A DNA stretch of 35,772 bases from Gemmatimonadota bacterium (lineage in GTDB: Bacteria > Latescibacterota > UBA2968 > UBA8231), in contig PATE01000122.1 in the NCBI GenBank assembly GCA_002712305.1, forward strand, positions 1 through 35,772, in the 5' to 3' direction. The notes under the pieces are model-generated. The model had not been told where the DNA came from, ran no database searches, and saw only the letters and a program-made list of their open reading frames with translations. Made by a program: the position numbers and the translations under genes. Numbering within the stretch: position 1 is the stretch's first letter; each line of letters starts with the position of its first letter. Below, piece after piece: positions 2,683 through 23,740 of this stretch.

Positions 2683-4811
<2,129 letters not shown>

Positions 4812-5119: not shown

Positions 5120-6928
5120 ATGATCCGCCTCAGTTCTGTCCTCCTTCTGGTGATCGCTACCGCCGTGAACGCCATCGAGTTTGTCGGCGTCGGCGTCGGC
5201 GACGGGGCGCTATCGTGGGACCAGGCCAAGTCATCGTCGCGGTTCGTCACTGTCGAGGCCGACAGCATTTGGATGTGGGACATTGCCACGGAGGCCAATC
5301 TGACCCCTGGTCTGGCCGAGCGTGGCGGCTTCGCCCTCTACGCGGGCGAGACCGGGATTGACACCCTGCGCACGACGGCGCTCTTCGACGGCGACCTGAC
5401 GACCTACTTCGACCCGGACGAGAATGCCGCCATCGAGCGCTCGTCCGCCATCCTCGTGGATCTCGGCGGTACCTTCAACATCAACCGGGTGCGCTTTGTT
5501 CCGCGCCTCGACGTCATCCACCGCAACCGTTTCCTGCAGGAGTTTTCCCTGCGCTCGGCGCTGATCCTGCCCCTCGGTGGCGTCGATCTCTTACTCGAGC
5601 GCAGTCTGGCGCATTTTCTGGCGCCGAATGAAAATACCGAGCCCGTCGTCGACCTGCGGTTCAACTCCGTGAGCGCCCGTTTCGTGCAGCTGGTGCCGCT
5701 GACCGGTCGCGCCTGGGAGATTGCCGAGCTCGAGGTCTATAGCGACGGCACCGTGCCCCAAGGCGAGTATGTGTCCGTGCCGCTGCCGGCGAGGCAAGCG
5801 ACGCCGGTGTGGGGCCAGGTTCGTTACGAGGGCGGCAATCTGGCGCAAGCGCCGTTCGTCGTGCAGACCCGCACCGGGCCCGATCCCCACCCCGTCCTCC
5901 ACTTCATCAAGAACGGCGACGAGCTCGTGCCGATTGACGGGGACTCGTGGGCGACAACGCGACCCGGTCTGCAAGGTCCAAGGGAGCCGAACCCGGCGTG
6001 GAGTGGTTGGTCGACGGTAACCGAAGGCGCCGTGCGCTCGCCGTCACTGAACCGCTACCTGCAGTTCCGCGTGGCTCTGCCGGCGCCCGGCACCGGCCTG
6101 GGGCAGCTGCGCTTCGATTACAGCTTTCCCCCCATCGCCCGCGACCTGGCTGCCGAGATCTGGCCACGCACTGCCACCGCCGGTGTCGAAACCGACTTCA
6201 CCTTGTTCCTGGCAGCCGAGATGAAGACCTCCGGCGCCGTGCAGCGGCGGGATACGGGTTTTCGTCAGATCGAGGTGCGTACGAGCGTAGAGATCTCTCG
6301 TGTCGGCCCCGTGTTCGTCGACGACGAGGAGGTGTTCGCCACCGCCCAGGTCCAACCCGGCGTGGGCTTCAGCCTCAACTTGTGGGAGCGAGTCCTGAAG
6401 GACGGCAGCTTCCTGCAGATCGAGTTGACCGCCGCCGCTCTGCGTGACCGCACACAGTTCGAGGTGCGCGCCGTCGATCGCCGCTCCGACGTCGATGACG
6501 GACAGTCCGTCGCCTACCAGTTGGCGCGCCCTGCCGACATCGACGTTTCGACGCCGGGGGGTGGTCTCATCGTCGATCTCGACGCTGACGGCGGCGACGG
6601 GCGGACCGAACTGCTGGCCAACATACGCCTCCACAGCCCGGTGATCACCCCCAATGGGGACGGTGCCAACGACGCACTACAGGTGTCGCTGTCGTTGCTC
6701 AAGCTCCTGGAGCCTGCGCGCCTGCGACTCGAGATCTTTGGCCTCGACGGCCAGCGTGTGCGCCGCGCGGTGGATAGGCCAAGCACCAGCGGCAATCTGA
6801 CCTTGAGCTGGGATGGCCGCGATGACGCCGGCCGGGTGGTGCCGCCGGGCAGCTACGTCTACCAGATTCGAGTTGACGCCGATGCGTCCAACGCCCGCCA
6901 TCACGGCATCGTGAGTGTTGCGTATTGA
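5120..6928 (+). CDS. Secreted discoidin-like protein with NGDG/FlgD-Ig C-terminal domain (paralogue A)
   Basis: A 602-aa exported protein. The start is placed at the ATG at 5120, which opens a signal peptide (MIRLSSVLLLVIATAVNA); the frame upstream is not coding-like. Residues about 80-210 resemble an F5/8 type C (discoidin) fold: an ALFDGDLTTYFDP loop, then ILVDLGGTFNINRVRFVPR, ending in IAELEVYSDG. A second beta-rich part follows, then a block shared with its paralogues (FPPIARDLAAEIWP, GVETDFTLFL, FRQIEVRTS). From residue 510 comes TPNGDGAND, and a FlgD-Ig/CHU_C-like domain with WDGRDDAGRVVPPGSYVYQI, ending in SVAY. It is the first gene of the operon; its stop overlaps the TTG start of the next (TTGA). 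No ribosome-binding site is seen. Binding of a glycan or surface polymer is an inference from the discoidin-like part. Confidence 0.8.
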   Translation: MIRLSSVLLLVIATAVNAIEFVGVGVGDGALSWDQAKSSSRFVTVEADSIWMWDIATEANLTPGLAERGGFALYAGETGIDTLRTTALFDGDLTTYFDPDENAAIERSSAILVDLGGTFNINRVRFVPRLDVIHRNRFLQEFSLRSALILPLGGVDLLLERSLAHFLAPNENTEPVVDLRFNSVSARFVQLVPLTGRAWEIAELEVYSDGTVPQGEYVSVPLPARQATPVWGQVRYEGGNLAQAPFVVQTRTGPDPHPVLHFIKNGDELVPIDGDSWATTRPGLQGPREPNPAWSGWSTVTEGAVRSPSLNRYLQFRVALPAPGTGLGQLRFDYSFPPIARDLAAEIWPRTATAGVETDFTLFLAAEMKTSGAVQRRDTGFRQIEVRTSVEISRVGPVFVDDEEVFATAQVQPGVGFSLNLWERVLKDGSFLQIELTAAALRDRTQFEVRAVDRRSDVDDGQSVAYQLARPADIDVSTPGGGLIVDLDADGGDGRTELLANIRLHSPVITPNGDGANDALQVSLSLLKLLEPARLRLEIFGLDGQRVRRAVDRPSTSGNLTLSWDGRDDAGRVVPPGSYVYQIRVDADASNARHHGIVSVAY

Positions 6929-9438
6929 ATCCCCTACGCGCCGCTGTTGCACTTCCGCTACTCGCCGCCTTCGTCGCAGCCCAGGAGCCTGAGGAGCCCA
7001 CTGATCCTGGCTACCGAGTCATCGGTAGCCAGGTCGTCGTCGAGGGCGCCGAGCAGTGGGCGGCGTGGCAGGCGCCGGAGGGTGCGGCTGTCGTCGGCGA
7101 GGACGGTGTGTCGCCGCGGTTACTGCAGCGGCGCACGAATGTGACCCTGAACGCCGAGAGATTCTTCTTCTACGACGGCGACCAGGACACAATCTACGGC
7201 GGCGTACGCATCGCCCGTTCGGGTGCCGAGACTGCAGAGCTCGCCATCGATGGCGACCCGACCACGTACTGGGAGCCGGATCCTACGACCCCGGTGGACG
7301 ACTGGGTTCTGGAGGTCTACCTCGGCCGTTCCGTCGTCGTCGAGCAGGTCATCGTGCGTTTTGCTGCCGAAGGGGAGGGGGACCCGTTCCTCAAATTCCG
7401 GGTGCGGTTGTCTGACGGAGACGATTTCATCGAGCGCACCAGCGTGGTCGAGTACTTCCGCGCCGGCCAGGTGAACATCGCCAACAAAGACCAGCGCGAG
7501 TTTGTGTTCGACGTGCGCCCGCAGCGTCCGGTGCCAGATGGCGTCGCCGGCGAGGTCGTACAGTTCGTCCGCATCGAGGCCCTGGACTCTGATGGTCCAC
7601 GGGGACGGGAAGTCGATGCGTATGCGTATGCCGCCTTGCCCGCAGAGGAAAAAGGGGCCATCGACTATTTTCGGCGCACCGTGACCGGGCGCGTATTGCC
7701 GGTGGACGAGCTCACCTGGATCGAACTACCCGATGAGGAGCGCGGCCCAGTCAGCTATTTCCGCTGGGAGCGGCCCCGGCTGGCCGAGATCGAGGTCGTC
7801 AGTCCGGGCGAGAACATCGTACTGCTTACTCAGGAGCGAATCAATCGGGAACAAGGCGTCCTGGGTAACGTTCTGCGTGCCCTCACCACCGATGGCAATG
7901 TCGGCTCGGAGTCCTTGATCAAGCCCTACGACCCGCTGCGCGATCGCAACCAGCTCGAGGTCGACCTGGGCGCCAAATACTGGCTCGACCGGATCCGCAT
8001 GGTGGCGTTGCACAAGCCGATGCGGGCGTACCAGGTGCTGCTCTCGGACGGCTCCTTCGATCCGAGCGGTGAACGGCTTTGGAACGAGCTGGATGAGCGC
8101 GCCAATCGCGAGCGCTACCTGCAACTGCAGGAAGGATTTCCGCTGCAGGAAGTCCGCTACATCCAGATCCGGGCGCTGCAGTTGCTGGGCACCGAGACGG
8201 AGGCAGGCACCCTGGCCGAGTTGCAGGCCTACGGCGAGGGCTACGTATCCGAAATCGAGCTGACATCGCCCGTCATCAAGCTCGGGGCGTCGCGTATGTT
8301 CACGAGCCTTTCGTGGGACGGCGAGGCGCCGAATGAAACCCGAATCGACATCCGCACGCGCGCCGGCGATGATCTGACCATCCTCCACCGCTACTTTGAC
8401 AGGTGGGGTCGCGAGATCAGCCAGGAGGCCTGGGAGGCGGTGCGCAACGAGTTCCGTGGTCGCGTGGAGGAGGTGGAGCTACCCGGCCCCCGATGGAGCA
8501 GCTACAGCGAGCTCTATCGTGAGTCGGGGGAGATGTTCCGGTCACCGAGCCCGCGGCGCTTCGCCCTCGTCAACGTCCGCCTGAGGACGACGAACCCGCA
8601 GCGCCGGGCCCTGATCCGTCGCCTGCGAATCGGACTGGCGCCGCCGCTTGTGGATCAGACCTTCGCCGAGATCACCCCGTCGCGGGACGTCGAGCCCGGG
8701 GTCGACACGGAGTTCACGATGTACCTACGGCCGCAGTTCGCCTCAGGCGATCCTGGCTTCGACGGCATCGGTCTGCGCTCGACCTCGACGGCGCCGGTGG
8801 AGCTGCTCGGTCTGCGCGCCGCCTCCGAGAGGCTGCTAAGCTTCGGCACCGGGCAGGATCTGCTGGAAGCGTCCAACATCGAGTCTGTCGACGGCGGTGT
8901 CGACATTACCCTGCCGGAGGCGGAGCGGCGCTCCGGCAGGATCTACGAGCTTCGTTTCCGAACCCAAGTCTTCCTCTCGGGAACGACGTTCCAGGCGCTG
9001 CTGTCGTTGGCCTCGCGGCCTGGCGTGGTGCAGCAGGCCAGTGACGGGGACGCAGTTGATTTTGTGCAGAGCCAGACCCTTGTCGCTCTGTCCCAGCTGC
9101 GTCCCGGCCGTCTGCTCGATGCTCTGCAGATCGAACCGCCGGTGTTCACGCCCAATGGGGATGGCATCAACGACAACACCATCGTCGGCATCGACGTTTT
9201 CCAGGTGCGCGGCAGCAACGCCCGCATCGGTGTCGAAGTGTTCGATCTGACCGGCGCCCGGGTCCGCGACCTGTCGCAAACCGCGCCGTCGCCGAGTGGT
9301 CGCCACCAGATCCTCTGGGATGGCCGCGACGACGGTGGCCGTCTTGTGGCGCCCGGCATCTACGTCGTGCGCGCCGCGATCGATGTCGACGCGTCGACCT
9401 CCGCTCAACGCACGGGGCTCATCCATGTCGCCTACTAG
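6925..9438 (+). CDS. Secreted protein with two discoidin-like regions and NGDG/FlgD-Ig C-terminus (paralogue B)
   Basis: An 837-aa exported protein, apparently started by TTG at 6925, which overlaps the previous stop; the signal peptide MNPLRAAVALPLLAAFVAAQ follows at once and no ATG is available nearby. Two discoidin-like regions are visible: AIDGDPTTYWEPDP with WVLEVYLGRSVVVEQVIVRF (about residues 105-145), and a second with ALTTDGNVGSE, LEVDLGAKYWLDRIRMVAL and LAELQAYGEG (about residues 310-445). The shared block (PPLVDQTFAEITPSRDVEPG, then TEFTMYL and GFDGIGLRS) follows. TPNGDGIND starts near 742 and the FlgD-Ig-like end carries WDGRDDGGRLVAPGIYVV and HVAY. It is the longest of the four paralogues, mainly through the duplicated discoidin part. 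The next gene starts inside its last 14 nt. Confidence 0.8.
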   Translation: MNPLRAAVALPLLAAFVAAQEPEEPTDPGYRVIGSQVVVEGAEQWAAWQAPEGAAVVGEDGVSPRLLQRRTNVTLNAERFFFYDGDQDTIYGGVRIARSGAETAELAIDGDPTTYWEPDPTTPVDDWVLEVYLGRSVVVEQVIVRFAAEGEGDPFLKFRVRLSDGDDFIERTSVVEYFRAGQVNIANKDQREFVFDVRPQRPVPDGVAGEVVQFVRIEALDSDGPRGREVDAYAYAALPAEEKGAIDYFRRTVTGRVLPVDELTWIELPDEERGPVSYFRWERPRLAEIEVVSPGENIVLLTQERINREQGVLGNVLRALTTDGNVGSESLIKPYDPLRDRNQLEVDLGAKYWLDRIRMVALHKPMRAYQVLLSDGSFDPSGERLWNELDERANRERYLQLQEGFPLQEVRYIQIRALQLLGTETEAGTLAELQAYGEGYVSEIELTSPVIKLGASRMFTSLSWDGEAPNETRIDIRTRAGDDLTILHRYFDRWGREISQEAWEAVRNEFRGRVEEVELPGPRWSSYSELYRESGEMFRSPSPRRFALVNVRLRTTNPQRRALIRRLRIGLAPPLVDQTFAEITPSRDVEPGVDTEFTMYLRPQFASGDPGFDGIGLRSTSTAPVELLGLRAASERLLSFGTGQDLLEASNIESVDGGVDITLPEAERRSGRIYELRFRTQVFLSGTTFQALLSLASRPGVVQQASDGDAVDFVQSQTLVALSQLRPGRLLDALQIEPPVFTPNGDGINDNTIVGIDVFQVRGSNARIGVEVFDLTGARVRDLSQTAPSPSGRHQILWDGRDDGGRLVAPGIYVVRAAIDVDASTSAQRTGLIHVAY

Positions 9439-12181
9439 GAGCCTGCGACATGCGGCCTGCGGGTTGGCGGCACTGGCCTTCGCCCTGCAATTCTGTGCCG
9501 GCCAGGTCTGGGGTCAGTCGTACGGCGCCCAGGCGACGTCCCTTCTGGCCCAGCGCTCCTCCGAAGAGTTGTCGCCGCAGTTCGAGGTGGTCTACACGAC
9601 CCCGGCCCTCTACAAGTGGTACGGTCCACGGCATCTGTCCACCGGCTATCAGCGGCCGTGGTACCAGGATCAGCTGACCAACTATGCTCAGCAGCACTAC
9701 CAGAGGTACCTCAACGCCGGCTTGGAAGGGGACGAGTGGCACGACGCCTTCGGTCGGCGCCTGGGAAGGGGCTGGCTTGTCTATACGTGGGAGCAGGAGC
9801 AACCCGGGCGTAACGGCTCGCGGATTCGGCAGGGTAGCTTTTACAGCAGTGTCTTCGGGCGCCTTGTCATCTCCTCCGATACCGCCGGTGGCGGCACGTA
9901 CCGGCTTATGGTTGGTTCCGAACTCGACGCGCGGTTGACACCGATGACGTTTTTCAAGCCCAACTTCGAAGGCGTCCGGCTCGACTATGCCACAGACCGC
10001 CTGACGTCGACCTTCCTCTTCTCCCGGCCCTCCGACCCCGGCAACGCGGGTCGCACCAACTTCACCCATGTCGCAGCCGGCCACGCCGAGGTGCAGCTGT
10101 TCGATCTGGCCAAGATCGGCGCCACCTACGTTAACGCCCACACCGCCAACTCGGAGGACGAGTTCAGCGTCGGCAACCCCCTTGCCGGGGTGCTGACGAC
10201 GGCGCAGAACCAGGCCCTGTCGACCCTGTGGGTCCAGGTCCGTGACGACTCACCCGTGGACGGCAGCGGTGGGGCTACGGTGTTTGGCCACGACATCATC
10301 CTTGTCGACACCGCCGGCGTCGAGCTACGCGGCTCGGAGATCGATTTTCTGCCCGCCATCGCCGGTGCCCGGTTGCGCGATGGCGCCCTCGTCGCCGATG
10401 GCTCGGAGATGATGCTGTTCGAGTATGACCTGGCCAGCCTGCGCGACAAAGGCGTCGACCCAGAATCGATCACCGCCGCCACCATCGAGATGGCATTGGC
10501 CAACGACTACCATGTCGAGATGGCTTCCGACCTGCAGACCAACGGCGAGCGGTTCAATCCAGAGACCGTGTTGCTCACCTACGCACGAGCTGAGGGCAAC
10601 GTGCAGGACGACAGCAACGGAGAGTTGCTGCGCCTCGGTTACGGTCTACCGACCGGCAACGAGCTCATCGGCCTGAACTGGGACCTCGTGAATTGGGGCG
10701 GGCTGTCGGTGCAGGGCGAGGTGGTGCTCAACCGGCAGCATCGGCGATACCCCAACACGCGCACTGAGGATCGTCACGAGATGGTGCGCCGGGCGCATGC
10801 CGCCTACGGCATCGCCGCTTACCAGCGGCTGCCCATCAACCTGTTCGTCGAAGGCTTCCACATCGCCGATGCCTACTCGACGAGCTTCTGGCTCCCTCAG
10901 GCGGGAGGTATCGTTCAATATGAGGCGCCGGTACCGATGTTGTACGAGTTCGTCGACGACGACGACGATCACGACTCCATTCCGGAATGGCAGCGGCCCT
11001 TCCAGCGCACCTCCCAGGGCATCGCCTGGCCGGGTTACGACGTGGATGGCGACTTCCTGCATGACTACAACCAGAACAACAACCCGCGGCCACCGTGGAC
11101 GGTGTCGATTCCCGGGCGGCCGTCGAGCGTTCCGACGAACCGCAACCGCAACCTGATCCCTGATTATGAGGAGTCGTTCCTGCGGTTTCGCTCTGACCGG
11201 CCCGAGTTTCTCTTCGGCGTGGATATGAACCACAACGGCACGCCCGACCCCTTTGAGAACGACCTTCTACCCGACTACCCCTACAAGGCCGATCACCAGG
11301 GTATCAACGCCTACGCCAGGTGGTCGCCGACACCGCAGATACGGCTATTGGCGGGACGCCAGGACATGGGGCTTATCTCCGGTGACGGCAACACCGAGTC
11401 GTGGTACGCCATGCTGACCTGGACCCGCCGACTGGGACGCGGCGGCCGGCTGCGGGTGTTCGACTTCGGCGCGCTCGTGCAAGACGACATTCGCGACGAT
11501 CTGCAGACCTGGGTGCAACCCCTGGGCGCTGTCGGTCGCATGCGCGACGTGCGAGACCTGCTGGCGGCGCAGGATACCTGGCGCAACACGCTCTACATCG
11601 ACGCCGATCAGAGGTTGTCGGCAGGGCTGCGCCTATTCCACCGCCTCAAGTGGGAGAGCTGGTGGCAGCGCCGTGCGCGCCTTGAGGTCGCCGACGAGGA
11701 GGGGCGCATGCGCTCTGGCTTTCTTGGGATCATCAACAAGGGGGAGTGGACGATCCCCATCGGGCTCGGCGTCCTTGAGCCACGGGTGAAGTCCGAATTC
11801 AGGGCCGATCGGCCCTTCAGCACACGGCTGCCGCCGGCTCGCAGCCATGAGATGTCCGGCTATCTGATGTGGACACAGCCGATCTTTGCCGAGCAGACCT
11901 CCGTCAATTACTACGCCCGCTACGGTCGTCAGCTGTTCGACACCGAACTGCAGGTCGGCCTTGAGCTCGTCCGTTTCTGGATGCTTGAAGGCACGCGGCC
12001 AGACGTCGGCGAGGACTTCAATGGCCAGACCGTCGTGGCGCAGATCATCAACCGCGTCGGTTATCTCGGTTACCACCTGGTCACCCGGGCCGGTATTCAG
12101 TACGGGCGGCGGAACTTCGAAAGCATCGAGGACGAACGCACGTCAATGCTGTTTGTCACGATGAACGCAGGCCTCCAGTGA
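9425..12181 (+). CDS. Large outer-membrane-type protein with calcium-loop-like insert (OMP paralogue C)
   Basis: A 918-aa exported protein, started at the ATG at 9425, giving a signal peptide (about MSPTRSLRHAACGLAALAFALQFCAGQVWGQ). Much of the chain alternates polar and hydrophobic residues and is rich in Tyr/Trp/Arg, as expected of a beta-barrel. A shared N-terminal region has YKWYGPRHL, NYAQQHYQRYL, LTPMTFFKPNF. Around residues 510-615 lies an Asp/Asn-rich insert (DDDDDHDSIPEW, DVDGDFLHDYNQNNN, DMNHNGTPDPFEND, PDYPY) like thrombospondin type-3 or EF-hand calcium loops. The rest of the chain looks like barrel strands, although it does not end in the usual aromatic residue. It is a clear paralogue of the protein at 14121-16775. 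A dedicated OM partner for the preceding secreted proteins is the best guess from context; I know no named family. Confidence 0.75.
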   Translation: MSPTRSLRHAACGLAALAFALQFCAGQVWGQSYGAQATSLLAQRSSEELSPQFEVVYTTPALYKWYGPRHLSTGYQRPWYQDQLTNYAQQHYQRYLNAGLEGDEWHDAFGRRLGRGWLVYTWEQEQPGRNGSRIRQGSFYSSVFGRLVISSDTAGGGTYRLMVGSELDARLTPMTFFKPNFEGVRLDYATDRLTSTFLFSRPSDPGNAGRTNFTHVAAGHAEVQLFDLAKIGATYVNAHTANSEDEFSVGNPLAGVLTTAQNQALSTLWVQVRDDSPVDGSGGATVFGHDIILVDTAGVELRGSEIDFLPAIAGARLRDGALVADGSEMMLFEYDLASLRDKGVDPESITAATIEMALANDYHVEMASDLQTNGERFNPETVLLTYARAEGNVQDDSNGELLRLGYGLPTGNELIGLNWDLVNWGGLSVQGEVVLNRQHRRYPNTRTEDRHEMVRRAHAAYGIAAYQRLPINLFVEGFHIADAYSTSFWLPQAGGIVQYEAPVPMLYEFVDDDDDHDSIPEWQRPFQRTSQGIAWPGYDVDGDFLHDYNQNNNPRPPWTVSIPGRPSSVPTNRNRNLIPDYEESFLRFRSDRPEFLFGVDMNHNGTPDPFENDLLPDYPYKADHQGINAYARWSPTPQIRLLAGRQDMGLISGDGNTESWYAMLTWTRRLGRGGRLRVFDFGALVQDDIRDDLQTWVQPLGAVGRMRDVRDLLAAQDTWRNTLYIDADQRLSAGLRLFHRLKWESWWQRRARLEVADEEGRMRSGFLGIINKGEWTIPIGLGVLEPRVKSEFRADRPFSTRLPPARSHEMSGYLMWTQPIFAEQTSVNYYARYGRQLFDTELQVGLELVRFWMLEGTRPDVGEDFNGQTVVAQIINRVGYLGYHLVTRAGIQYGRRNFESIEDERTSMLFVTMNAGLQ

Positions 12182-14121
12182 TGCGACGTCACGTCAACCG
12201 ATTGCGCTGGTTAGGCTGCCTGGTGCTGGCCCTGTGGGCCGCCGGGGCGCAGGCTCAGTTGCGCACCTACATCCTCGGCGAGCGTGCCGAGCCGTGGTCG
12301 GAGGGGGGCGGCCTCGTCGAGCCGGTGCGCAACATCGGGAGGACCTTCAGCGCTCGCCTGGACACCGGTAATGTGCCGGAAGACGACATCGAGTTCGTCG
12401 CTCGTCCGGGCTGGATCAGTCCGCGCTTCTTCGATGGCCAGACCAACATCGCCAGCCTCGTCATCGACAGTCCGGGCCGGGTGCGGGCGCCGAACTCTCA
12501 GAACATTTCCCGGGCACTGCTAAATCAACAGCTCGAGGGCATCGTCAACGGCGACCACGACATCGCCTACGAGCGCAAGCCGACGACGTTCGTGCCCGAG
12601 ATGCCGGCCTTCGGCATCTGGATCATCCTCGATTTCGGTCGTCAGGTGGGCGTCAACCGGCTGAGGTTCTACCCGCGCAATACCGTCGAGGCGACACCGC
12701 AGACGCCGTTCGAGAACGACTTCCTACGCGGCTTCGAACTGTGGATCAATCCCGAGATCACGAACTCCGCCGAAGGTCGGCCCGATGTCCTCGTCGAACG
12801 CCGTCCCAACAACGACGATGCCGTCGTCGAGATCGACATCGATCCCCGCTATGTTCGTCTCATCAAGCTGCGCTCGCTAACGGAGACCCCCTTCGAGATC
12901 GACGAGCTCGAGGTCATCGGCTCCGGCTACATGGGCCGGGGGACCTGGTTCTCCGACCTCATCGACCTGGGAGGACCGGCGACCGTGGGCCCTGTGCGCT
13001 GGCGGGAGCGTGTCGTCGGCGAGGAGGCATTCTCTAGCACCCAGGTGCGGGTCCGCACCGGAGATGACGACACGCCGCTGCTGTTCGAGCAACGTGGCGC
13101 CGCCTGGGATCCGTTCGACCCGAATCCCCCCGGCTTCACCGAGGTGGATGCCGAGACCTACTGGAGTCTCGACATCACCGAGCGCGGTGAGGTCGTCGAC
13201 GACGTCGATCACTGGAGCGCGTGGAAGACGGTGGACAACGGCGGTCTAATCGGTGGCCGGCTGCCCCGCCAGTTCGTGCAGTTCGAGATCGGCTTTGCGG
13301 GGCGCATCGCCGATACCCGACAACTCGACTGGCTGCAGTTCGATTATCTGCAGCCACCGATCGCCGACACCTTGCGAGCCGAGGTCTTTCCTCGCCGGGC
13401 ACCGGTCGAGCGGCGGGCCACCTTCCGGTACGCGGTGCAACTACGGCGCAACGGCGACATCCTCGGCTTCGACGAGCTCGAGGTCGATACCACAGTGCCG
13501 GTGGAGAACATCCGTGACGTCACCGTCAACGATATTCCCGTGCCCTTCGAAGTGGCATACGCGCGGGATGACGCCTTCCGCCTGTTATTGCCCCTCATCG
13601 ACGGCGACGGCGATGTTCTCGAATTTGCTTTCGACCTGCCTGTGTTCCGGTTCGGCACGACGTTCTCGGGGCGCGTCGTCAACAGCCGCTTCGAGCGTGT
13701 GCCGCAGCGGCTCGAGGCCGGAAACGCCAATGACTTCGGCCCCGGCGACGACGATGATCTGTCCAACCTGTTCGTGTCGATCCCGGAGGAGCGCATCGGT
13801 AAGCTGGTGGGTACGATCGCTCTGTCCGACAAAGTCATCACGCCGAACGGAGACGGGATCAACGACGATGTGCACGTGCAGTTTAACCTGCTGCAACTCG
13901 TCGATGTGGCACCGGTGCGTTTCGAGGTCTTCGACCTGGCCGGTCGGCGCGTCGCCAACCTCGACCTTGGCGAGCGGTCCCTGGGACCGGCCGACTTCCG
14001 CTGGGACGGCACCGGCTCTGATGGCCGGCTGTTGACACCCGGCACCTACGTGTGGAGGCTGCTAGTAGCGGCCGATGCCTTTGACGAGGAGCATATGGGT
14101 ATCCTGGCGGTCGCATACTGA
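12181..14121 (+). CDS. Secreted discoidin-like protein with NGDG/FlgD-Ig C-terminus (paralogue D)
   Basis: A 646-aa exported protein. The ATG at 12181 overlaps the preceding stop (TGATG); a GTG just before it (12178) is an alternative start. Signal peptide: MRRHVNRLRWLGCLVLALWAAGAQA. A discoidin-like part spans about residues 70-245 (WIILDFGRQVGVNRLRFYPR, then FEIDELEVIGSGYMGRG). The shared block has LQFDYLQPPIADTLRAEVFP, ATFRYAVQL and GFDELEVDTT. TPNGDGINDD starts at 554 and the end has FDLAGRRVANLD, WDGTGSDGRLLTPGTYVWRL and AVAY. It stands directly before a second ~900-aa OMP gene, the same order as paralogue B with OMP C. This repeats the cargo+OMP pair. Confidence 0.8.
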   Translation: MRRHVNRLRWLGCLVLALWAAGAQAQLRTYILGERAEPWSEGGGLVEPVRNIGRTFSARLDTGNVPEDDIEFVARPGWISPRFFDGQTNIASLVIDSPGRVRAPNSQNISRALLNQQLEGIVNGDHDIAYERKPTTFVPEMPAFGIWIILDFGRQVGVNRLRFYPRNTVEATPQTPFENDFLRGFELWINPEITNSAEGRPDVLVERRPNNDDAVVEIDIDPRYVRLIKLRSLTETPFEIDELEVIGSGYMGRGTWFSDLIDLGGPATVGPVRWRERVVGEEAFSSTQVRVRTGDDDTPLLFEQRGAAWDPFDPNPPGFTEVDAETYWSLDITERGEVVDDVDHWSAWKTVDNGGLIGGRLPRQFVQFEIGFAGRIADTRQLDWLQFDYLQPPIADTLRAEVFPRRAPVERRATFRYAVQLRRNGDILGFDELEVDTTVPVENIRDVTVNDIPVPFEVAYARDDAFRLLLPLIDGDGDVLEFAFDLPVFRFGTTFSGRVVNSRFERVPQRLEAGNANDFGPGDDDDLSNLFVSIPEERIGKLVGTIALSDKVITPNGDGINDDVHVQFNLLQLVDVAPVRFEVFDLAGRRVANLDLGERSLGPADFRWDGTGSDGRLLTPGTYVWRLLVAADAFDEEHMGILAVAY

Positions 14122-16775
14122 TGACAAATCGGAACCACATCGCGGCGATCCTCGCCCTTTGTCTCCTTCTCGGCACGGCGACGACAGTGGCGGCCCAGGA
14201 CTACGGCGCGCGCCTGGGCACTGTCAAGCGCGGCGGCCGCGTCAGCTTCGAGCCCACCGGCCCCGGCGTGCTGTTCGATGCCCTCGATCCGGCTCTGCGC
14301 AAGTGGTATGTGCCGCAGGAGCTGTTCGCCGAGTACCAGTGGCGGCAGTGGGAATACTCCAACTACGCCCGGCAGAACTACCAGCGATACGTGTCGACGT
14401 CGCTGGAGGGGGACTACTGGTACGACGTGTACGGCAACCAGCTGACCCAGGGCTGGCTGATCTACGACTGGCGGCAGGAGAATCCGACCCCCTTTGGTAG
14501 CGTGCTGGAGAAGAGCGGCCAGTTCAGTTCATGGTTCTCATCGGTGGCCATCGCCTCCGATCACAAGGGGCAGTACCACTACTCTATCACCGTCGGCTCG
14601 CGAATCCGCACGACCCTGACGCCGATGACGTTCAGCAAGCCGAACTTCGATGGCATCCAGTGGGACTTCGTTTCCGACAAGCACGCCCTCACCCTGCTGT
14701 TGTCGCGCATCAGCGAGCCGAACTCGCCGACCTTCTTGCCGGAGGGGCTGACGAGCAACACAAATCTGTTCGGCGCGCGCGTGGAAGCGCGGGTGGGGGA
14801 TTTCGTCAAGGTTGGCGGCACCTTCGTCAACGCCCACCACTCGGTGACGCAGCTGGATGCCATCAACGGCGATGTGTTCTCCGGTGCCCTGGCGGAAGGG
14901 CAGAACTTCAGCGTCGTCGGCCGCGTACAGGCGCTGATCTCCGACGATTCACCGGACGACGGCGTGGGAGGCGGCGCGCTGTTCTCCTCTGACCTCGTCA
15001 TCGAGGACCTTGAGGGTCAGAGCTTCCGTGCCTCCGAGATCGGCTTCCGGCCGCTGGTGGAGGGTGGTTTCCAACGTCGAGGGTTCCTCGCTGCCGACGG
15101 CCACGAGGAGATCCTGCTGACCTACGACTTCAACGACCGAACCTACTCCGGTCCCGATCCCACCGAGATCCGCCGCGTCGAGATGGAGCTCGTCGTCGCC
15201 AACGACTACCGAATCGATATCGCCTCCGATCGTCAGCGCAATGCCAATGGTGCGGTCGTCTTCCTGCCCTACACCCGCGCTCGGGGCAACGTCAAAGACG
15301 GCTCCAACCAGCGTGTCCTGCGTTTCGACTACGGTGTGCCGACGGCGAACCAGATCGCTGGTTTCACCGTCGAGATGACAGACCTGAAGGGTGTCGATGG
15401 CTTCCTCGAGGTCAACGTCAACACCCGCTACCGCAAATATCCGAACCCCCACACGAAGCGTCACACCTCGGACAGCGATCGTGCCCTCGGCTGGCTCGCC
15501 AACCTGTCGCACAAGCGCTACCCCTGGTTCACTTTCTTCGAAGCCTTCGGCATGGATCCCGGCTACTCGACGTCGATCGTCACCATCGACAAGAGGGAGG
15601 GGGTACCCGACTACGACAACCAGCTCGAACTCTATGAGTTCGTCGCCGACAACGACGACGCCGACCAGTTCGCCGACCGCCGGCGCAAAGGATCGACGGC
15701 GGGCGACCGCGATGTTTTCCCCGGCCTCGATGAGAACAACGACCGCATCTGGGACTTCAACCAGAACGACAACAGGGACCGGCCCAACTTTCTGCCCGAC
15801 TGGGAAGAGCCATTCCTCCGCTATTACGCCGACCGGCCCGAGTTCCTTTTTGGCGTCGACGCCAACCACAACGGCACGGTGGACCGATTCGAGAACGACG
15901 ACGAGCCCGACTATCCCTATCGGCGAGACCAGGAGGGCTACAACGTCTACGGGGGGGTGCACCTGGGACCCGACGTGCGCTTCACGGTCGGTCGCATGCG
16001 GATCAAGCAGCTCTCCGACGACCGACACAACCGTGCCGTCTACGGACAACTCGTCGTCGACTTCAGGACCTCGGCCTATGGTCGGCTGCGGCTCTTCCAG
16101 GACCTTCGGCGTGTCCGCGACACGATCCGGGATGACCTGCTGCAGTGGGTGCAGCTGCCGAACACCCGTGGCAGCCTTCGTCTCGTCATCGATGAGCTGC
16201 CCGCCCAGGATACGTGGGTGAACAACACCTGGCTCGGCTGGGAGCACGAGCTCGTGCGTGGCCTGAAGCTCGACAACCGGATGAAGTGGCAGCTCCATCG
16301 CCAGCGAGACGAGGAGCTCGCTCTCGAGCTTCGCGGCCACCGCGAGGCTTCGTGGTTCTACGGACTCGTCAACAAGGCTGAGTACAGCCTGCAGCTCGGC
16401 ACATGGACCCTGCAGCCCCGCTGGAAGAGCGAGTGGCTGCAGAACACGCCGGTGCGCCGGTCGCTGCCCCGTCGTCACGAGCTCGACGAGTTGTTCATGC
16501 TTGTCGTTCGCCACCCCATCATGCAAAAGAGCTTCGTCGAGGGCGGCGTCGAGTACCAGCTGTTCAACCAGTTGAAGGACCCGGTCCCGCCGGGTGCCGA
16601 GCCCGATTTCACGGCGGTGACGACGACGGTGCAAATGACAAACCTCTCCGACTATCTCGGCTACCAGCTGACGACAACCCTCGGTCTGGAGGTCACCCGT
16701 CTCGACCTTCGCTTCGAGCCCACACAGACGCGGACCCGCGGGTTCCTGACGATCTATGCTGGCATCGAGCGCTAG
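14121..16775 (+). CDS. Large outer-membrane-type protein with calcium-loop-like insert (OMP paralogue E)
   Basis: An 884-aa exported protein; its ATG overlaps the preceding stop (TGATG). Signal peptide: MTNRNHIAAILALCLLLG, cut near AAQ. It aligns by eye over its length with the protein at 9425-12181: RKWYVPQELFAEYQWRQWEY, NYARQNYQRYV, TLTPMTFSKPNFDGI, SDDSPDDGVGGGALF, ELVVANDYRIDIASD. At about residues 515-600 it has the same Asp/Asn-rich insert (DENNDRIWDFNQNDN, then FLFGVDANHNGTVDRFEND, then PDYPY). The C-terminal third has repeated amphipathic strands and ends IYAGIER. Likely a beta-barrel of the outer membrane with a calcium-binding extracellular or periplasmic insert. Function unknown. 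Confidence 0.75.
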   Translation: MTNRNHIAAILALCLLLGTATTVAAQDYGARLGTVKRGGRVSFEPTGPGVLFDALDPALRKWYVPQELFAEYQWRQWEYSNYARQNYQRYVSTSLEGDYWYDVYGNQLTQGWLIYDWRQENPTPFGSVLEKSGQFSSWFSSVAIASDHKGQYHYSITVGSRIRTTLTPMTFSKPNFDGIQWDFVSDKHALTLLLSRISEPNSPTFLPEGLTSNTNLFGARVEARVGDFVKVGGTFVNAHHSVTQLDAINGDVFSGALAEGQNFSVVGRVQALISDDSPDDGVGGGALFSSDLVIEDLEGQSFRASEIGFRPLVEGGFQRRGFLAADGHEEILLTYDFNDRTYSGPDPTEIRRVEMELVVANDYRIDIASDRQRNANGAVVFLPYTRARGNVKDGSNQRVLRFDYGVPTANQIAGFTVEMTDLKGVDGFLEVNVNTRYRKYPNPHTKRHTSDSDRALGWLANLSHKRYPWFTFFEAFGMDPGYSTSIVTIDKREGVPDYDNQLELYEFVADNDDADQFADRRRKGSTAGDRDVFPGLDENNDRIWDFNQNDNRDRPNFLPDWEEPFLRYYADRPEFLFGVDANHNGTVDRFENDDEPDYPYRRDQEGYNVYGGVHLGPDVRFTVGRMRIKQLSDDRHNRAVYGQLVVDFRTSAYGRLRLFQDLRRVRDTIRDDLLQWVQLPNTRGSLRLVIDELPAQDTWVNNTWLGWEHELVRGLKLDNRMKWQLHRQRDEELALELRGHREASWFYGLVNKAEYSLQLGTWTLQPRWKSEWLQNTPVRRSLPRRHELDELFMLVVRHPIMQKSFVEGGVEYQLFNQLKDPVPPGAEPDFTAVTTTVQMTNLSDYLGYQLTTTLGLEVTRLDLRFEPTQTRTRGFLTIYAGIER

Positions 16776-16782
16776 GCACCAA

Positions 16783-18162
16783 ATGATGGCGACGTCGACG
16801 CGCGCAACTGTGGCCCACATCCTGTGCCTCGCGCTGCTGGCCCTCGCCGGCTGTGGCAGCGAAAGCTCGTTGCCGGCCCCCGTGGCACCGCCGGATCCGG
16901 GTCCGTCGCCCTTCGCTGATCCGGCACTCACGCAGGCGGTGCGCGGCGCCCTCGACCTCGACGCCCACGTGCCCTTTGCAGCTGAGGCGCTCGACAGTCT
17001 CAGCCAGCTGGTTGCCCGTGACCTGGAGATCACTAGCCTGGAGGGTCTCGATACACTGGCGTCGCTGCAGGTTCTCGACATCGGCAACAATCATATCGAT
17101 GATCTGGGGCCACTGTCGGGTCTATCGCAGTTGGTTCGGCTCGACGTCAGTAGCAATGCGCTAACATCGCTGACGCCGCTGCGCAACGTGCGCAGCCTGC
17201 AGATCGTGTTCGCCGAGCACAATCTGGTCACCGACGTGTCGCCGCTATTCTTCCTGCCTTTGCTGGAGCGTGTCGATCTGACCGGCAACCCGGTGCCGGC
17301 GATCCACCTGCTGCGATTGTCGGAGGGCGGTACCGAGGTACGCTACGGCGGCCTGTCGGAGATTGCCGTGCTCTGCGACGAGCCGCCTGTCGTGCGCAGC
17401 GGACGGTTGACCGTCGAGCGCCTGTTCGATCTTCTCAAGCTCCCCAACGGCAACCGCTGCCTCGATATCGACGGTAGCTTGACCCTGTCCAAGCTGCCGG
17501 TGGAGAATCTGCAAGACATTCGCACCCTGCGGCGTGTGGACGGCACGCTCCGTATCCGGCAGAACGCACAGCTGCTGGAGATCTCTGCATTGGCGAGCCT
17601 GTCGGAGGTGACTGGCGGCCTGCAGATCACGGAGAACCCCTTTCTGGAGAGCCTCGACGGCCTCGAGGCACTGGGAACGATCGGTGGCCGCCTGCAGATC
17701 CTCAACAATGCCGCGCTGGCTGACCTCGGTAGTTTCAGCAACCTCGGTCTGGCCAACGGCATCACGATCAGCGGCAACACCAACCTGCAGAGCCTCGAAG
17801 GCCTCGAGGCACTGGAGCAGATTCTCGGTTCCCTCGTCCTCAACGCCGCCGGCGTCACGTCGCTGGAGGGGCTGCACAACCTACGCACCATTCAGGGTGG
17901 CATCCTCAGCATCACAAACAACCCGGTCCTGACCGACCTCGGCGGCTTGCGCAGCCTGGAAACGATCTCGGGGGGCGTGACCATCCGCAGCAACGCCGAC
18001 CTGCAGACCCTGGCCGGATTCGATCCCGGCCGCGTTGGCGGCCGCATCATCTTCGAGAACAACCCGAGACTTTCCAGCACGGCGGTGGACGACTTCCGCG
18101 AACGCATGCGTCAGCGCGGCTTCGACGGTACCGTCATCAACCGCAACAACGGCGGTTCCTAG
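16783..18162 (+). CDS. Leucine-rich-repeat lipoprotein
   Basis: A 459-aa lipoprotein. Start at the ATG at 16783 (a second ATG follows directly at 16786), 7 nt after the preceding stop. The signal peptide ends in a clear lipobox, LLALAGC, with the lipidated Cys at residue 24 followed by Gly-Ser-Glu. A short Pro-rich linker follows. Residues about 85-170 hold internalin-like LRRs (LQVLDIGNNHIDDLGPLSGL, LVRLDVSSNALTSLTPLRNV). From about 220 to the end come irregular 20-24-residue repeats of the receptor-L type (GGLQITENPFLESLDGLEAL, GGRLQILNNAALADLGSF, GGVTIRSNADLQTLAGF). It is the last gene of the operon. A surface ligand-binding or scaffold role is inferred. Confidence 0.85.
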   Translation: MMATSTRATVAHILCLALLALAGCGSESSLPAPVAPPDPGPSPFADPALTQAVRGALDLDAHVPFAAEALDSLSQLVARDLEITSLEGLDTLASLQVLDIGNNHIDDLGPLSGLSQLVRLDVSSNALTSLTPLRNVRSLQIVFAEHNLVTDVSPLFFLPLLERVDLTGNPVPAIHLLRLSEGGTEVRYGGLSEIAVLCDEPPVVRSGRLTVERLFDLLKLPNGNRCLDIDGSLTLSKLPVENLQDIRTLRRVDGTLRIRQNAQLLEISALASLSEVTGGLQITENPFLESLDGLEALGTIGGRLQILNNAALADLGSFSNLGLANGITISGNTNLQSLEGLEALEQILGSLVLNAAGVTSLEGLHNLRTIQGGILSITNNPVLTDLGGLRSLETISGGVTIRSNADLQTLAGFDPGRVGGRIIFENNPRLSSTAVDDFRERMRQRGFDGTVINRNNGGS

Positions 18163-18422: not shown

Positions 18423-20459
18423 TCAGTAAGCGACGGCCACGGTTCCAGTCTCGACGAACGTGCCGGCTCCGAGGGCTGCCTCGATGCGGTACACGTAGAG
18501 TCCCGGCGCCACCAACTGACCAACCTCATCCCGTCCGTCCCAGCGAGCCAGCCCGGCCGAAGCGCCAGACCGTGTGTAGTCACCGGCAGAGACGCTGGGT
18601 AGTACGAGATGGCGCAGGGCACGTCCGCTGAGGTCGTGGATACCGACGACGATACGCACGGGTGCGATCGTCCGCGACAGGATAAATTCGATCACCGTTT
18701 CGTCATTCATGCCGTCGCCATTCGGCGTCAGTACAGGCGGGTTGGCGGCAACCCGTCCAAACCCGCGCTGAAGCGGATCGGTGGCCAGCAGGCGCCATCC
18801 GTCGTCGGTCGCTTCGGCGACGTTGAGGGGGTCGTCGGATTCCGGCGCGTACAGCCAACTGCGGAACAGGTGGGACAGCGTAAACGTGCTGGCCTCGAAG
18901 CCGATGCCCAGCTGTGTGTCCGTTGTGATCGGCGGGTCGAAGTGAAGGGACAGCATTTCATCCGTCGACTGCCATCCAGCCAACGACGCTCCGCCCAGGC
19001 CGAAGATCTCGCCGAGGATGGCGCCGGAGGGCACTGCCAGCTCCAGGCGCTCGACGCCGTCATCATCGGGTCCGAAGGCGAGATCTACGGTGTAGAGAAA
19101 CTCGGTGGCCACACCCATGGAAGCACCGTTCGGTGTTACTCGGCCCTGGGCAGAGGAGACGGCCACGTCCTGCGAGGAGAAGTCGATGGACAGCGAGCCC
19201 AGTGAGGGTGTCGTACGGTCGTCCAGCGTATTGAGGTTGACGCGGTACTGCACGAGGCTAGCCGGCTCCGGCGACGGAAACCACAAACCATCGCTCTCGG
19301 CGACGGCGCTCCAGCCGTCCTCTGGATCGACGAAGTCGGAAAGTTCGTTGCCGGTACGGAACTGCAGGGAGAGCGCCGTGTCGACCGGCAGGTCGGCATC
19401 CCAGTGCACGCGGCCGAAATTCTTGTGGCTCGCCGTGCCCAGATCCAGCGGCGGCGACACATACGTGCCCCGGTAGTTGTGGCCGGTACCATAAGCTTCG
19501 ACCTCGGCGACCAGGGGCTGGGAGTTGTCCGAGGCCTCGGTGACGACGACACGCAGGAATCTTATGACCTCGGGCTCGAAAGTCACCTCTGTCCGGGCGT
19601 ACTCGCGGATGTCCTGCAGGAAGCCGATCTCGACCCACTGGACGCGGTCGTGGCTTTGCTGCACGGAATAGCCGCGTATCGAGTTGCGCTTCCGCTCGGT
19701 GTCGTCGTCGCCAAAAGTGATGACGCGGACCTTGTGCATTCGTCGCGGTGAGCCCACGTCGATCTCGATCTTCTGGTCGATCGGGTCCGGCCGGCCGCGC
19801 CACGCGGTGCGCAGGTCACCGTCGGAGGTCTCCTCCGGGCTACGCGGGTTACCCAGGGCCAAGTTCACGCCATCCAACCGATTCAGACTCACGGAGCCGG
19901 CCATCGAGCCGATATCGACATCGCCTGAGAAACCGGCGAGCACGGTGGCGGACGAGCTCACCGGCACCGAGAGGCGGTCGCGGTCGATGGAACCCTCTTG
20001 CGGTACGGCCCAGTCGTCCGACTTGGAGACGTCGGCCGTCGTCCATGCCAAATCGGCCGGCTCCTTGTCCGAACAGTACCAGGGCACCAGGCTGCGGTCG
20101 GTGGTGGACGGCGCGACCAGCAGTGAGTCTTCCAGGTGTGCACGTAGATGGGTGAGGAAGCCGTTGCCGACGCCGAGGCCGTGGTTGACGACGCGTAGGG
20201 CCAGGTGGTTGACGCCGGAGTCAAGTTCGACGGGAACCGTCAGCACCTGTGTCCAGTCCGAGCCCGAGCCGACGTACTCACCATTGAACCAAACTTCGTA
20301 GCTGTCGACGGCGGCCACCTGCAAGGTGCCGGGCGCGGCCTGCTCCGTGGAAATCGTCCCACGATAGAAGGCAGTGCGGCGCCAGGTAGTCTGCTCCCAT
20401 GTGTCGGCATGGGCGGCCGTGGCGAGCACGAACAGGGCGAGAGAGATAGCACGAATCAT
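18423..20459 (-). CDS. Secreted discoidin-like protein with NGDG/FlgD-Ig C-terminus (paralogue G)
   Basis: A 678-aa exported protein. The start is set at the ATG at 20459, which opens the signal peptide MIRAISLALFVLATAAHA; an in-frame ATG at 20516 would prepend 19 non-signal residues. The N-terminus has a galactose-binding-like part (VAAVDSYEVWFNGEYVGSGS, then LALRVVNHG), an addition not seen in the operon paralogues. A discoidin-like part follows (TSDGDLRTAWRGRPDP, KIEIDVGSPRRMHKVRVITF, VAEVEAYGTG), then the shared block (GVATEFLYTVDL, VERLELAVPSG), TPNGDGMNDE at about 578, WDGRDEVGQLVAPGLYVYRI and AVAY at the end. It converges on the operon, separated by about 260 nt. No Shine-Dalgarno is visible. 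It probably belongs to the same surface system. Confidence 0.8.
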   Translation of the reverse strand: MIRAISLALFVLATAAHADTWEQTTWRRTAFYRGTISTEQAAPGTLQVAAVDSYEVWFNGEYVGSGSDWTQVLTVPVELDSGVNHLALRVVNHGLGVGNGFLTHLRAHLEDSLLVAPSTTDRSLVPWYCSDKEPADLAWTTADVSKSDDWAVPQEGSIDRDRLSVPVSSSATVLAGFSGDVDIGSMAGSVSLNRLDGVNLALGNPRSPEETSDGDLRTAWRGRPDPIDQKIEIDVGSPRRMHKVRVITFGDDDTERKRNSIRGYSVQQSHDRVQWVEIGFLQDIREYARTEVTFEPEVIRFLRVVVTEASDNSQPLVAEVEAYGTGHNYRGTYVSPPLDLGTASHKNFGRVHWDADLPVDTALSLQFRTGNELSDFVDPEDGWSAVAESDGLWFPSPEPASLVQYRVNLNTLDDRTTPSLGSLSIDFSSQDVAVSSAQGRVTPNGASMGVATEFLYTVDLAFGPDDDGVERLELAVPSGAILGEIFGLGGASLAGWQSTDEMLSLHFDPPITTDTQLGIGFEASTFTLSHLFRSWLYAPESDDPLNVAEATDDGWRLLATDPLQRGFGRVAANPPVLTPNGDGMNDETVIEFILSRTIAPVRIVVGIHDLSGRALRHLVLPSVSAGDYTRSGASAGLARWDGRDEVGQLVAPGLYVYRIEAALGAGTFVETGTVAVAY

Positions 20460-20599
20460 GGAAGGAAGATACGAAGGCGCGTCAAACGCGCTCTGTGGTA
20501 CATCGACGAAGAGCATGCCCAGCTCGTGCCTCTGAGTGCCGAGGTGGTTGATCAGCTTCTTCGTCTACGGTAGCGCCTCACGTGGGTGCCTCGAGATTT

Positions 20600-21027: not shown

Positions 21028-23535
21028 CTATCGAATCAGCAGGAGGCTCTTCACTTGCACGCTGGCCGCCGCTTGCAGCCGATATAGATAAACACCACTG
21101 GCCATGGCATTGCCATCGTCGTCGCGGCCATTCCAGACGACCTCATGAGATCCAGCGTGAAGAATCCCATCGACCAGGGTCACCACCCTCTGGCCGGCCA
21201 TGTTGTAGACGGCCAGTTCCACGGGTCCGCCATGCGGAAGTGAGAAGCTAATCATCGTGTTGGGGTTGAAAGGATTGGGATAGTTCTGGGCAAGCTGGAA
21301 CGAGGCAGGTTCAGCACTGTTCTCGACGGCGACATGGGTGGCCCCCATTCCGCTGATCCAACGTCGAATCAACTCAGCTCCCTCATGATCTATCACCGAG
21401 GTTGCCAGGGGCGGCATGCGGGACTCATCCACATTCAACATCCGCAGGTAGACCAATGAGCGCTCGGGGGCACCGGGGGTGATCAGCGCGGCCTCCTCTA
21501 CGCCCAACTCATCAAGGGCCGGCTTCACGTTCAGCGTGTGCGTCAGCTCAAGGGGTGTGGAGAACCGCAGGTCCATATTGGAACGACCCGTACTGTGTGG
21601 CCGATGGCACTGAGAGCAATTGGCGTCCAGGTACGAGCGAGCACGTCGCGCCACATCTTCGTCGTCATCGTGCGGCTCGGGCTGTGAGGGGAGATTGCCG
21701 TCTTCTCCAAGGCCATTGCTTCCAAAGAGCCCGATGTGGTCGTAGCTGCGCAACTGTTGATCCCTGATGTCCCCGTATAAGTGGGTCCGATTCAACTGCG
21801 CCGTGTGGGCCCCCAGTACGAAACCGGCCGCTCGCGTGTGACACAGGTTGCACTCCGCCCGACTCGGAAAGTAGTAGGACTGCTCTCGATGGCCGTCAGG
21901 ACTCTCCGGGTCCACGATGGTGTAGGTCTCCGAGTGACTGTCGTCGAGCAAGGTCGCATCCGTACCAGTGTCGTTCCAACGGTAGCTCAACCCCGACCAC
22001 TCCACGCCTCTGGCGTTCTTGACGAGCAGTCGGGTCTCCACGATGTGACGGCTCTCCGGGTCACCCTTCACCATCTCCAGGTAGAAGTTCTTCACGAATA
22101 CCGTGCCATGCGGGAAGCGCCACGGACCGTCGGGCGAGAAGCCGATCAGCTGTTGGTTCGGTAAGACCATCAAGCGGGTCTTGTCAGCGCCGTCGGACCA
22201 CAAGGGGGAATTGACCGAGTAAGGAATTAGACCCGAAGCCGGGGTCTGTAAGGTGACGTCGCTGAACAGGCCCGAGACGGAGAGGGTCAACGGGATCTGC
22301 TCGGGTTCTGTCTCTGATGGCATGTCCTCCAGGACGTAGGTCGGACCCTCAGAGGTCAACACATAGATCTCCCCGGATTCATCCTCTCCAAAACTCGTGA
22401 TAAAGGAAGGACTCACGGCAAGGAGGTGGTTCTCGACGTGTCCGGCCTGGCGCCGCAGGGCCCAGATCCTGCCGTCGACATAGTCTCCGTATATATAGGC
22501 CCCCTGCAGCGACGGCAGGCGAGTGCCCCGATAGACGAACCCCCCGATCATCGCGGCAGCGCCCCGGTGTGGATAGCTGAAGACAGGTGGCGCGAAGCCG
22601 GCCGCGTCACAATCGGTTCGGGGAGGGTTGCAAGCATTTCCCTCTATGATGGGCCAACCGTAGTTCCTGCCCTTCTCAACCACGTTCACTTCTTCCCAGA
22701 AGTGCTGGCCCACGTCCCCGGCCCAGAGTTCACCCGCCGGATCGAAGCTGAATCGCCAGGGGTTTCGCAGTCCCCAGGCCCAGATCTCCTCGCGCCAGCC
22801 GCGGTCGTTCCCGACCAGCGGATTATCGTTCGGGATACCGTAAGGCAGCTCTCCCATTCGGGTGTCTACGTCGATCCGCAGGATGGAGCCCTGTAGGAAC
22901 GCGGGATTCTGGGCAAGGTTGACACCATCCTCGTCGGTGCCGTGACCATCCCCGAGCGCGACATACAGATACCCATCTGAACCGAAGGCGAGTTGGCCCC
23001 CGAAGTGGCTCGGCGAAGGCTGGTCGATGTCCAACAGGATGCGCTCACTGGAGGCATCCGCAGAGTCAGGATTGGCGTTGGAAACCCTGAACTCCGAAAT
23101 CCGCGAAACCACCTCTCCGTGGGTGTAGTACACGAAGAACCGCCCGTTGTCGGCATAGTCCGCGTGAAAGGCCATGCTTAGCAAACCCGACTCAAAGTGC
23201 GAGGAGTTCACCTGGTCTCGGATCACCAGGAAGAGCCTCGCACTCAGTACTGCATCCCCGTCGGTGTGCCAGACCTGGATGAGGCCGTCCTTCATGAGCC
23301 AGAAAAGACGTTGGCTCCCGTCTCCGGCATGCGTGAGGGCAACCGGCAGTTGGCCGACACGATCGGCAAAGACCTGCCGCAGGCTCATATCGGTTGAGGG
23401 AGCCGAAGTACGAATGGCAAACGAGGTGTTCGCCTCACGCTCGTTGATTCCGTACGGGGGTGTCTGAGCGGCTAACGAAACTGTCGTGGCAGCGACGCCG
23501 CAGAAGAGGCGGATGATCAGTGGCCAGAAGTACAT
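21028..23535 (-). CDS. Quinoprotein (GSDH-type) sugar dehydrogenase fused to SO2930-like diheme cytochrome and a type A sorting tail
   Basis: 835 aa from the ATG at 23535 (signal peptide [20 protein letters not shown]); an upstream ATG at 23592 is possible. Three modules are visible. Residues about 45-405 form a PQQ-dependent glucose/sorbosone dehydrogenase propeller ([49 protein letters not shown]). Residues about 415-735 match the SO2930-family diheme cytochrome pattern ([20 protein letters not shown], then [11 protein letters not shown]) with two heme motifs, CNLCH at 562-566 and CSQCH at 640-644. The last 80 or so residues form a Por/FlgD-type secretion tail ([47 protein letters not shown]). 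It would oxidise a sugar or alcohol at the cell surface and pass electrons to its own hemes. Substrate unknown. It diverges from the transpeptidase gene across 205 nt. Confidence 0.85.
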
Positions 23536-23740
23536 GCGCCGGATGGTGATCAAACGAAACGCGCCCGGCCTCCTTGTCGGTGATGGTAGCATGTCTGAAC
23601 GAAGTCAGGACAGGCGGGCAGGGTCAAGCGACCCGCGGGCGGGGCCTGGCCTTGACCGGCGCCAGTCCACCGTTCGACTATATGCGAGCCCGCCCCAGTT
23701 CCTTCCTGCAGGTGAATCTCCTTCACCCGGAGGCCATCCC
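23536..23740. promoter_or_regulatory. Divergent promoter region
   Basis: The dehydrogenase gene (minus) and the transpeptidase gene (plus) start on opposite sides of this 205-nt stretch, so both promoters must lie here. I cannot name -35/-10 boxes. The only clear signal is ggagg at 23729-23733, the ribosome-binding site of the transpeptidase. Confidence 0.45.

Follow-up and report, generated by a model that had tools for sequence, protein, structure and literature searches.

In Latescibacterota, a phylum that is uncultured and occurs in sponges and sea water, gene order and co-occurrence link a large, unnamed family of outer-membrane proteins (OMPs), with dozens of members per genome, to exported surface proteins of a glycan-binding type (cargos). 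Two members of this OMP family, C and E, are encoded within a run of six genes (A–F) in the window, by which we mean the whole 35,772-nt stretch of DNA analysed (contig C122 of the host genome, a Latescibacterota draft assembly of 4.77 Mb). The most likely reading, which we hold with about as much belief as doubt, is that C and E are dedicated outer-membrane carriers or anchors for A, B and D as surface proteins like those of the type IX secretion system (T9SS).

The six-gene locus and its conservation

Re-reading of the open reading frames confirmed the arrangement given in a preliminary description of the locus, with six same-strand genes that overlap by 1–14 nt or stand 7 nt apart and a signal peptide or lipobox on each product. 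Signal peptides can be read in the sequence at the N-termini of A–E, while F, described as a leucine-rich repeat (LRR) lipoprotein, carries the lipobox LALAGC and LRRs detected with Pfam. The discoidin-like/FlgD-Ig character attributed to A, B and D is borne out by FlgD_ig matches above the Pfam cut-off in all three, and that of C and E as large paralogous OMPs by their 36–38% identity and by the modelling of E as a barrel. Alternative starts are possible for D (GTG at 12178) and open for F (ATG at 16756). A fourth cargo gene, on the minus strand, lies just beyond the run and, together with A, indicates that cargos also occur without an OMP of their own.

Table 1 Features of the locus and its surroundings (window positions).
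Feature	Position	Strand	Description and basis
Genes A–F	5120–18162	+	Six genes on the same strand; all products with export signals
Gene A	5120–6928	+	ATG start; exported cargo, discoidin-like, C-terminal FlgD-Ig/CHU_C domain, C-terminus VAY
CHU_C/FlgD-type C-terminal domain of A	6641–6913	+	T9SS type B-like sorting domain; PF13585, 31.8 bits
Gene B	6925–9438	+	TTG start, 4-nt overlap with A; exported long cargo, 837 aa, FlgD-Ig C-terminus
Gene C	9425–12181	+	ATG start, 14-nt overlap with B; OMP paralogue 1, unnamed large barrel family
EF-hand-like loop DMNHNGTPDPFE in C	11222–11257	+	Possible Ca2+ site; sequence motif
Gene D	12181–14121	+	ATG start, 1-nt overlap with C; exported cargo of 646 aa, successive beta domains leading to FlgD-Ig/CHU_C
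CHU_C/FlgD-type C-terminal domain of D	13831–14106	+	TPNGDGIND motif; Pfam and sequence
Gene E	14121–16775	+	ATG start, 1-nt overlap with D; OMP paralogue 2, unnamed large barrel family
Barrel region of E	14544–16763	+	~23–24 long strands; AlphaFold model, strand count approximate
Beta-strand domain inserted in E barrel	14913–15290	+	Between strands ~6 and 7, possible plug; AlphaFold model
Long D/N-rich, highly conserved loop of E	15633–15929	+	Conservation and AlphaFold model
EF-hand-like motif DANHNGTVDRFE in D/N-rich loop of E	15858–15893	+	Sequence motif
Gene F	16783–18162	+	ATG start, 7-nt gap after E; LRR lipoprotein, occasional partner
Orphan cargo	18423–20516	-	697 aa, discoidin and FlgD-Ig, ends VAY; type found in motor-linked clusters

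Elsewhere in the window, an IS3-type transposase pair lies immediately upstream of the locus (2733–4015), with a gene for Amj, the alternate to the lipid II flippase MurJ, directly downstream of the transposase (4008–4811). A protein of the TMEM43 family, whose name comes from an animal protein, is encoded at 613–1881 (229.6 bits).

The nearest named relatives of the host are Latescibacterota MAGs, some of which are labelled Gemmatimonadetes. In the closest of these, SI074_bin69, genes A–F are complete at 79–93% identity (E at 93%), and the order A-B-C-D-E is kept in another genus, in a complete genome from the host's taxonomic family (G018; identities of 41, 51, 55, 56 and 62%, respectively). 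B-C-D-E also occur in order at locus L073, and D-E at four further loci. Orthologues of A were found in the same place at L028 (87%) and L127 (41%), those of B at L028 (89%), L127 (51%) and L073 (47%), and those of C at the same three loci (89%, 55% and 46%). Gene order at the locus is conserved, with F no more than an occasional partner whose relatives adjoin OMPs at some other loci only.

The locus had also been described as containing a duplicated cargo and OMP module. The repeat is real and extends far beyond one operon, but the idea that B-C had recently been duplicated in tandem to give D-E was rejected: C and E have separate orthologues in other genera, which makes them two old paralogues and not a recent copy, and B and D belong to different cargo classes. 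In place of the single six-gene apparatus first envisaged, the locus proved to be one of many paralogous substrate–OMP modules in the genome.

Pairing, expansion and co-occurrence of cargo and barrel genes

Cargo and OMP genes are paired, the OMP family is expanded, and the two kinds of protein co-occur across genomes. At least 12 OMPs of the family are encoded on six contigs of the host. Every searched genome from the host's taxonomic family had such OMPs, and so did genomes from several further families of the phylum, bringing the total to 39 of 64 genomes. The complete genome G018 contains about 47 OMPs; for 33 of the 47, a cargo gene in the same orientation lies upstream at a distance of at most 300 bp. 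Among the remainder, one has a cargo 881 bp away, ten stand behind another OMP and three have neither. At public loci (n = 86), the gene directly upstream was a cargo in 54 cases, another OMP in 27 and neither in five. As the cargo genes of G018 number well over 100, many cargos are without a barrel of their own. In OMP-positive genomes, searches with the cargo profile recovered the cargo body (E 1e-24 to 1e-224); in all ten of the OMP-negative genomes searched, they gave the cargo C-terminal domain only (best E 5e-15 or weaker).

Distances between the OMPs of G018 correlated with those between their adjacent cargos (r 0.59 overall and 0.88–0.91 inside cargo classes). The correlation was equal for adjacent and next-nearest cargos (0.58 for both), which points to co-duplicated modules and not to the identity of the binding partner, and co-divergence was therefore not taken to prove a partnership with the adjacent cargo. 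It was weaker for the C-terminal 100 residues of the cargos than for the remainder (0.38 versus 0.61), and the C-terminal domain is therefore not indicated as the contact with the barrel.

A second type of cluster was seen at L108, L109 and L110 in the host (contigs C57, C21 and C43) and at L147–L149 in G018. It comprises a type A-like FlgD protein, a cargo like the minus-strand one in the window and two to three divergent OMPs, together with a TPR protein, a DUF4159 protein and, in several cases, a MotA/TolQ/ExbB proton-channel gene. Genomes G045–G048, from one other family of the phylum, seemingly have this cluster type alone. In one such cluster a PorV/PorQ-like protein (L148:6931-7788; 42 bits against a cut-off of 90) is encoded between a cargo gene and an OMP.

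Structure of the barrel proteins and possible roles in uptake or a surface layer

C and E matched no Pfam or NCBIfam family above cut-off, and a PDB sequence search with the OMPs returned no match; C scored 1066 bits against the OMP profile. When E alone was modelled with AlphaFold, using an alignment with 44 relatives, a beta-barrel of ~23–24 strands was obtained (mean pLDDT 77.5, pTM 0.75), with the N-terminal 130 residues poorly predicted. The best fold matches of this model (SlpA, MtrB, OmpG and FimD) had TM-scores of 0.42 or lower, and hence no close solved relative was found.

The modules recall the SusC–SusD pairs of Bacteroidota: each large barrel is matched by one surface binder, the paralogous pairs number in the dozens within one genome, and the cargos contain discoidin domains. 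On this reading they would serve nutrient uptake, the exported discoidin protein capturing glycans atop an importing barrel. Such a role is consistent with the weak fold matches of E, which include XusA/BtuB-type TonB-dependent barrels, and with the MotA/TolQ/ExbB genes beside the second-type clusters. We nonetheless consider it unlikely, as no TonB-dependent receptor or plug family was found in any of the 44 OMPs searched, a result on which membership of C and E among TonB-dependent receptors or SusC proteins was rejected. In addition, there was no SusD family match, the cargos, unlike SusD, are not lipoproteins, and many of them are without an OMP. Gene sets for sugar degradation were not seen, and no sugar-degrading enzyme family was among the 25 commonest in 86 neighbouring genes.

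The top three fold matches of E, with the best E-values of the search (1e-7), were SlpA/S-layer deinoxanthin-binding complexes of Deinococcus, which likewise contain a very large outer-membrane barrel. Together with the conserved and possibly Ca-binding D/N-rich loop, these matches would suit a static surface layer, in which the OMP forms a base plate like the SlpA complex and is tiled by cargos. This arrangement appears quite improbable, since the TM-scores of ~0.2 indicate generic barrel likeness only and dozens of pairs that have diverged within one genome are more readily explained as a varied repertoire than as a single lattice. No SLH or coiled-coil part was recognised.

Type IX secretion features and a proposed route to the cell surface

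The C-termini of the cargos resemble T9SS type B signals in their sequence. CHU_C (PF13585, cut-off 27 bits) matched A at 31.8 bits and D at 29.6 bits but fell short in B, at 22.9 bits; it was also matched by 43 of 44 aligned cargos (E up to 0.001). In a set of 157 non-redundant cargos, Tyr is the last residue of 155, and PNGDG is present in 75%, the motif taking the form TPNGDGxND. The three scores obtained against the formal type B model TIGR04131 (16.2, 16.4 and 18.4 bits) lie under its cut-off of 35; these scores and the terminal Tyr set the domains apart from those of known type B substrates. FlgD-Ig domains as such are not specific to T9SS. Besides these C-terminal domains, A, B and D carry discoidin-like and further beta-sandwich domains. 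An F5/8 type C (discoidin) domain was above cut-off in B and weak in A. AlphaFold predicted D with confidence as beta domains strung in a chain (mean pLDDT 88.7), and the weak fold matches of this model include C5a peptidase, galactose oxidase, PorU and fucolectin. A second C-terminal class consists of 13 other FlgD-type proteins, mostly K/R-ending and none with PNGDG (0 of 13), one of which passes the type A model TIGR04183. The window itself encodes a protein of this type A-like class, an exported glucose/sorbosone dehydrogenase-like protein with a FlgD-Ig C-terminus ending in LLLIR (21028–23592).

The suggested co-occurrence with T9SS genes was found: both SprA and PorV passed their cut-offs in the host and in every one of 30 relatives, as did PorU in eight of ten genomes including the host (670 bits; cut-off 420). 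As SprA and PorV are also present in relatives that lack the OMP, the presence of a T9SS is not OMP-specific. The GldM model TIGR03517 had no match in any genome, control genomes among them. PorP/SprF was above cut-off in none of ten genomes, with control genomes equally without a match, so that its absence from these genomes is not proved. The host has two full-length PorU sortase-like genes (G000:C52:46127-49276 and G000:C57:22460-25549), the latter ~12 kb from a second-type OMP cluster.

In Bacteroidota, a type B substrate gene is commonly followed by the gene for its cognate PorP/SprF carrier, and such cognate pairs exist alongside orphan substrates that share one shuttle (PMC12618676); the carrier binds the type B substrate on the cell surface (PMC9143113). 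The modules described here are like SprB–SprF and PG1035–PorP in that a surface protein which is exported and ends in a CHU_C-like domain is encoded directly upstream of a barrel, in that pairs are accompanied by orphan substrates, and in the presence of SprA, PorV and PorU in the genome. By contrast, the barrel is three times larger than PorP/SprF (~880 aa versus ~300 aa), contains a domain insertion as well as a D/N-rich loop, and is present in ~47 copies in G018 versus a handful. It has no detectable sequence kinship to the PorP/SprF models (PF11751 matched 0 of 44 OMPs, and TIGR03519 neither C nor E). SprF has cysteines in its periplasmic tail, whereas most of the OMPs have no Cys after the signal region and SprF-like conserved cysteines are absent.

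Among the neighbours of the OMPs, where PPIases and TPRs dominate, the parvulin-type PPIase was the commonest family (18 of 86), and in G018, 26 of the 32 parvulin genes are found no more than 12 kb from an OMP, versus 4.2 expected from circular shifts. There is no PPIase gene within the window's own locus. A PPIase is a component of the T9SS translocon complex (PMC12611786). The clustering of PPIase genes agrees better with a role in export or assembly than with nutrient uptake.

Nearby PPIase genes would also suit a barrel that itself exports its neighbour, independently of SprA and in the manner of an usher or two-partner pore. E shares with the chaperone-usher barrels FimD and PapC a wide barrel, a beta domain inserted near strands 6–7 and a weak fold match, and cargo and barrel co-occur, while SprA is found without them too. 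However, TM-scores to ushers were only ~0.2–0.3, no usher, POTRA or TpsB family was found in the 44 OMPs, and there were no chaperone-usher pilins. With a T9SS-like C-terminal domain on the cargos and SprA, PorV and PorU in the host, we regard self-export by the barrel as improbable.

On the favoured reading of the barrels as T9SS carriers, cargos A, B and D would leave the cytoplasm by Sec export, be assisted by a periplasmic parvulin PPIase and cross the SprA translocon by way of their C-terminal FlgD-Ig/CHU_C domain. Each could then be handed to the barrel encoded directly downstream and be anchored on the cell surface, where its discoidin domains may bind glycans; the cargos are probably sugar-binding. 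We infer for the barrel the function of a carrier, and a barrel–cargo pair would work like SprB–SprF or PG1035–PorP of Bacteroidota.

In keeping with the earlier view that no described system has this make-up, none was found in the open-licence literature, which yielded no description of the cargo–OMP pair nor of a T9SS in Latescibacterota. Taken together, these observations suggest that the phylum has its own way of exporting dozens of proteins and holding them on the cell surface. A broader proposal, which we put forward tentatively and with doubt somewhat outweighing belief, is that Latescibacterota evolved unrelated, very large carriers for T9SS-like surface proteins, with ~50 barrels and their cargos per genome, often a PPIase gene nearby and a MotA/ExbB-type motor gene in some clusters, as a new surface-display system. 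If the barrel does carry T9SS cargo, T9SS carriers would not be limited to small barrels of the PorV, PorP and SprF type, and T9SS with cognate carriers would reach well outside Bacteroidota, where the literature mostly places T9SS. It would also open a way to understanding the attachment of these bacteria to particles or hosts.
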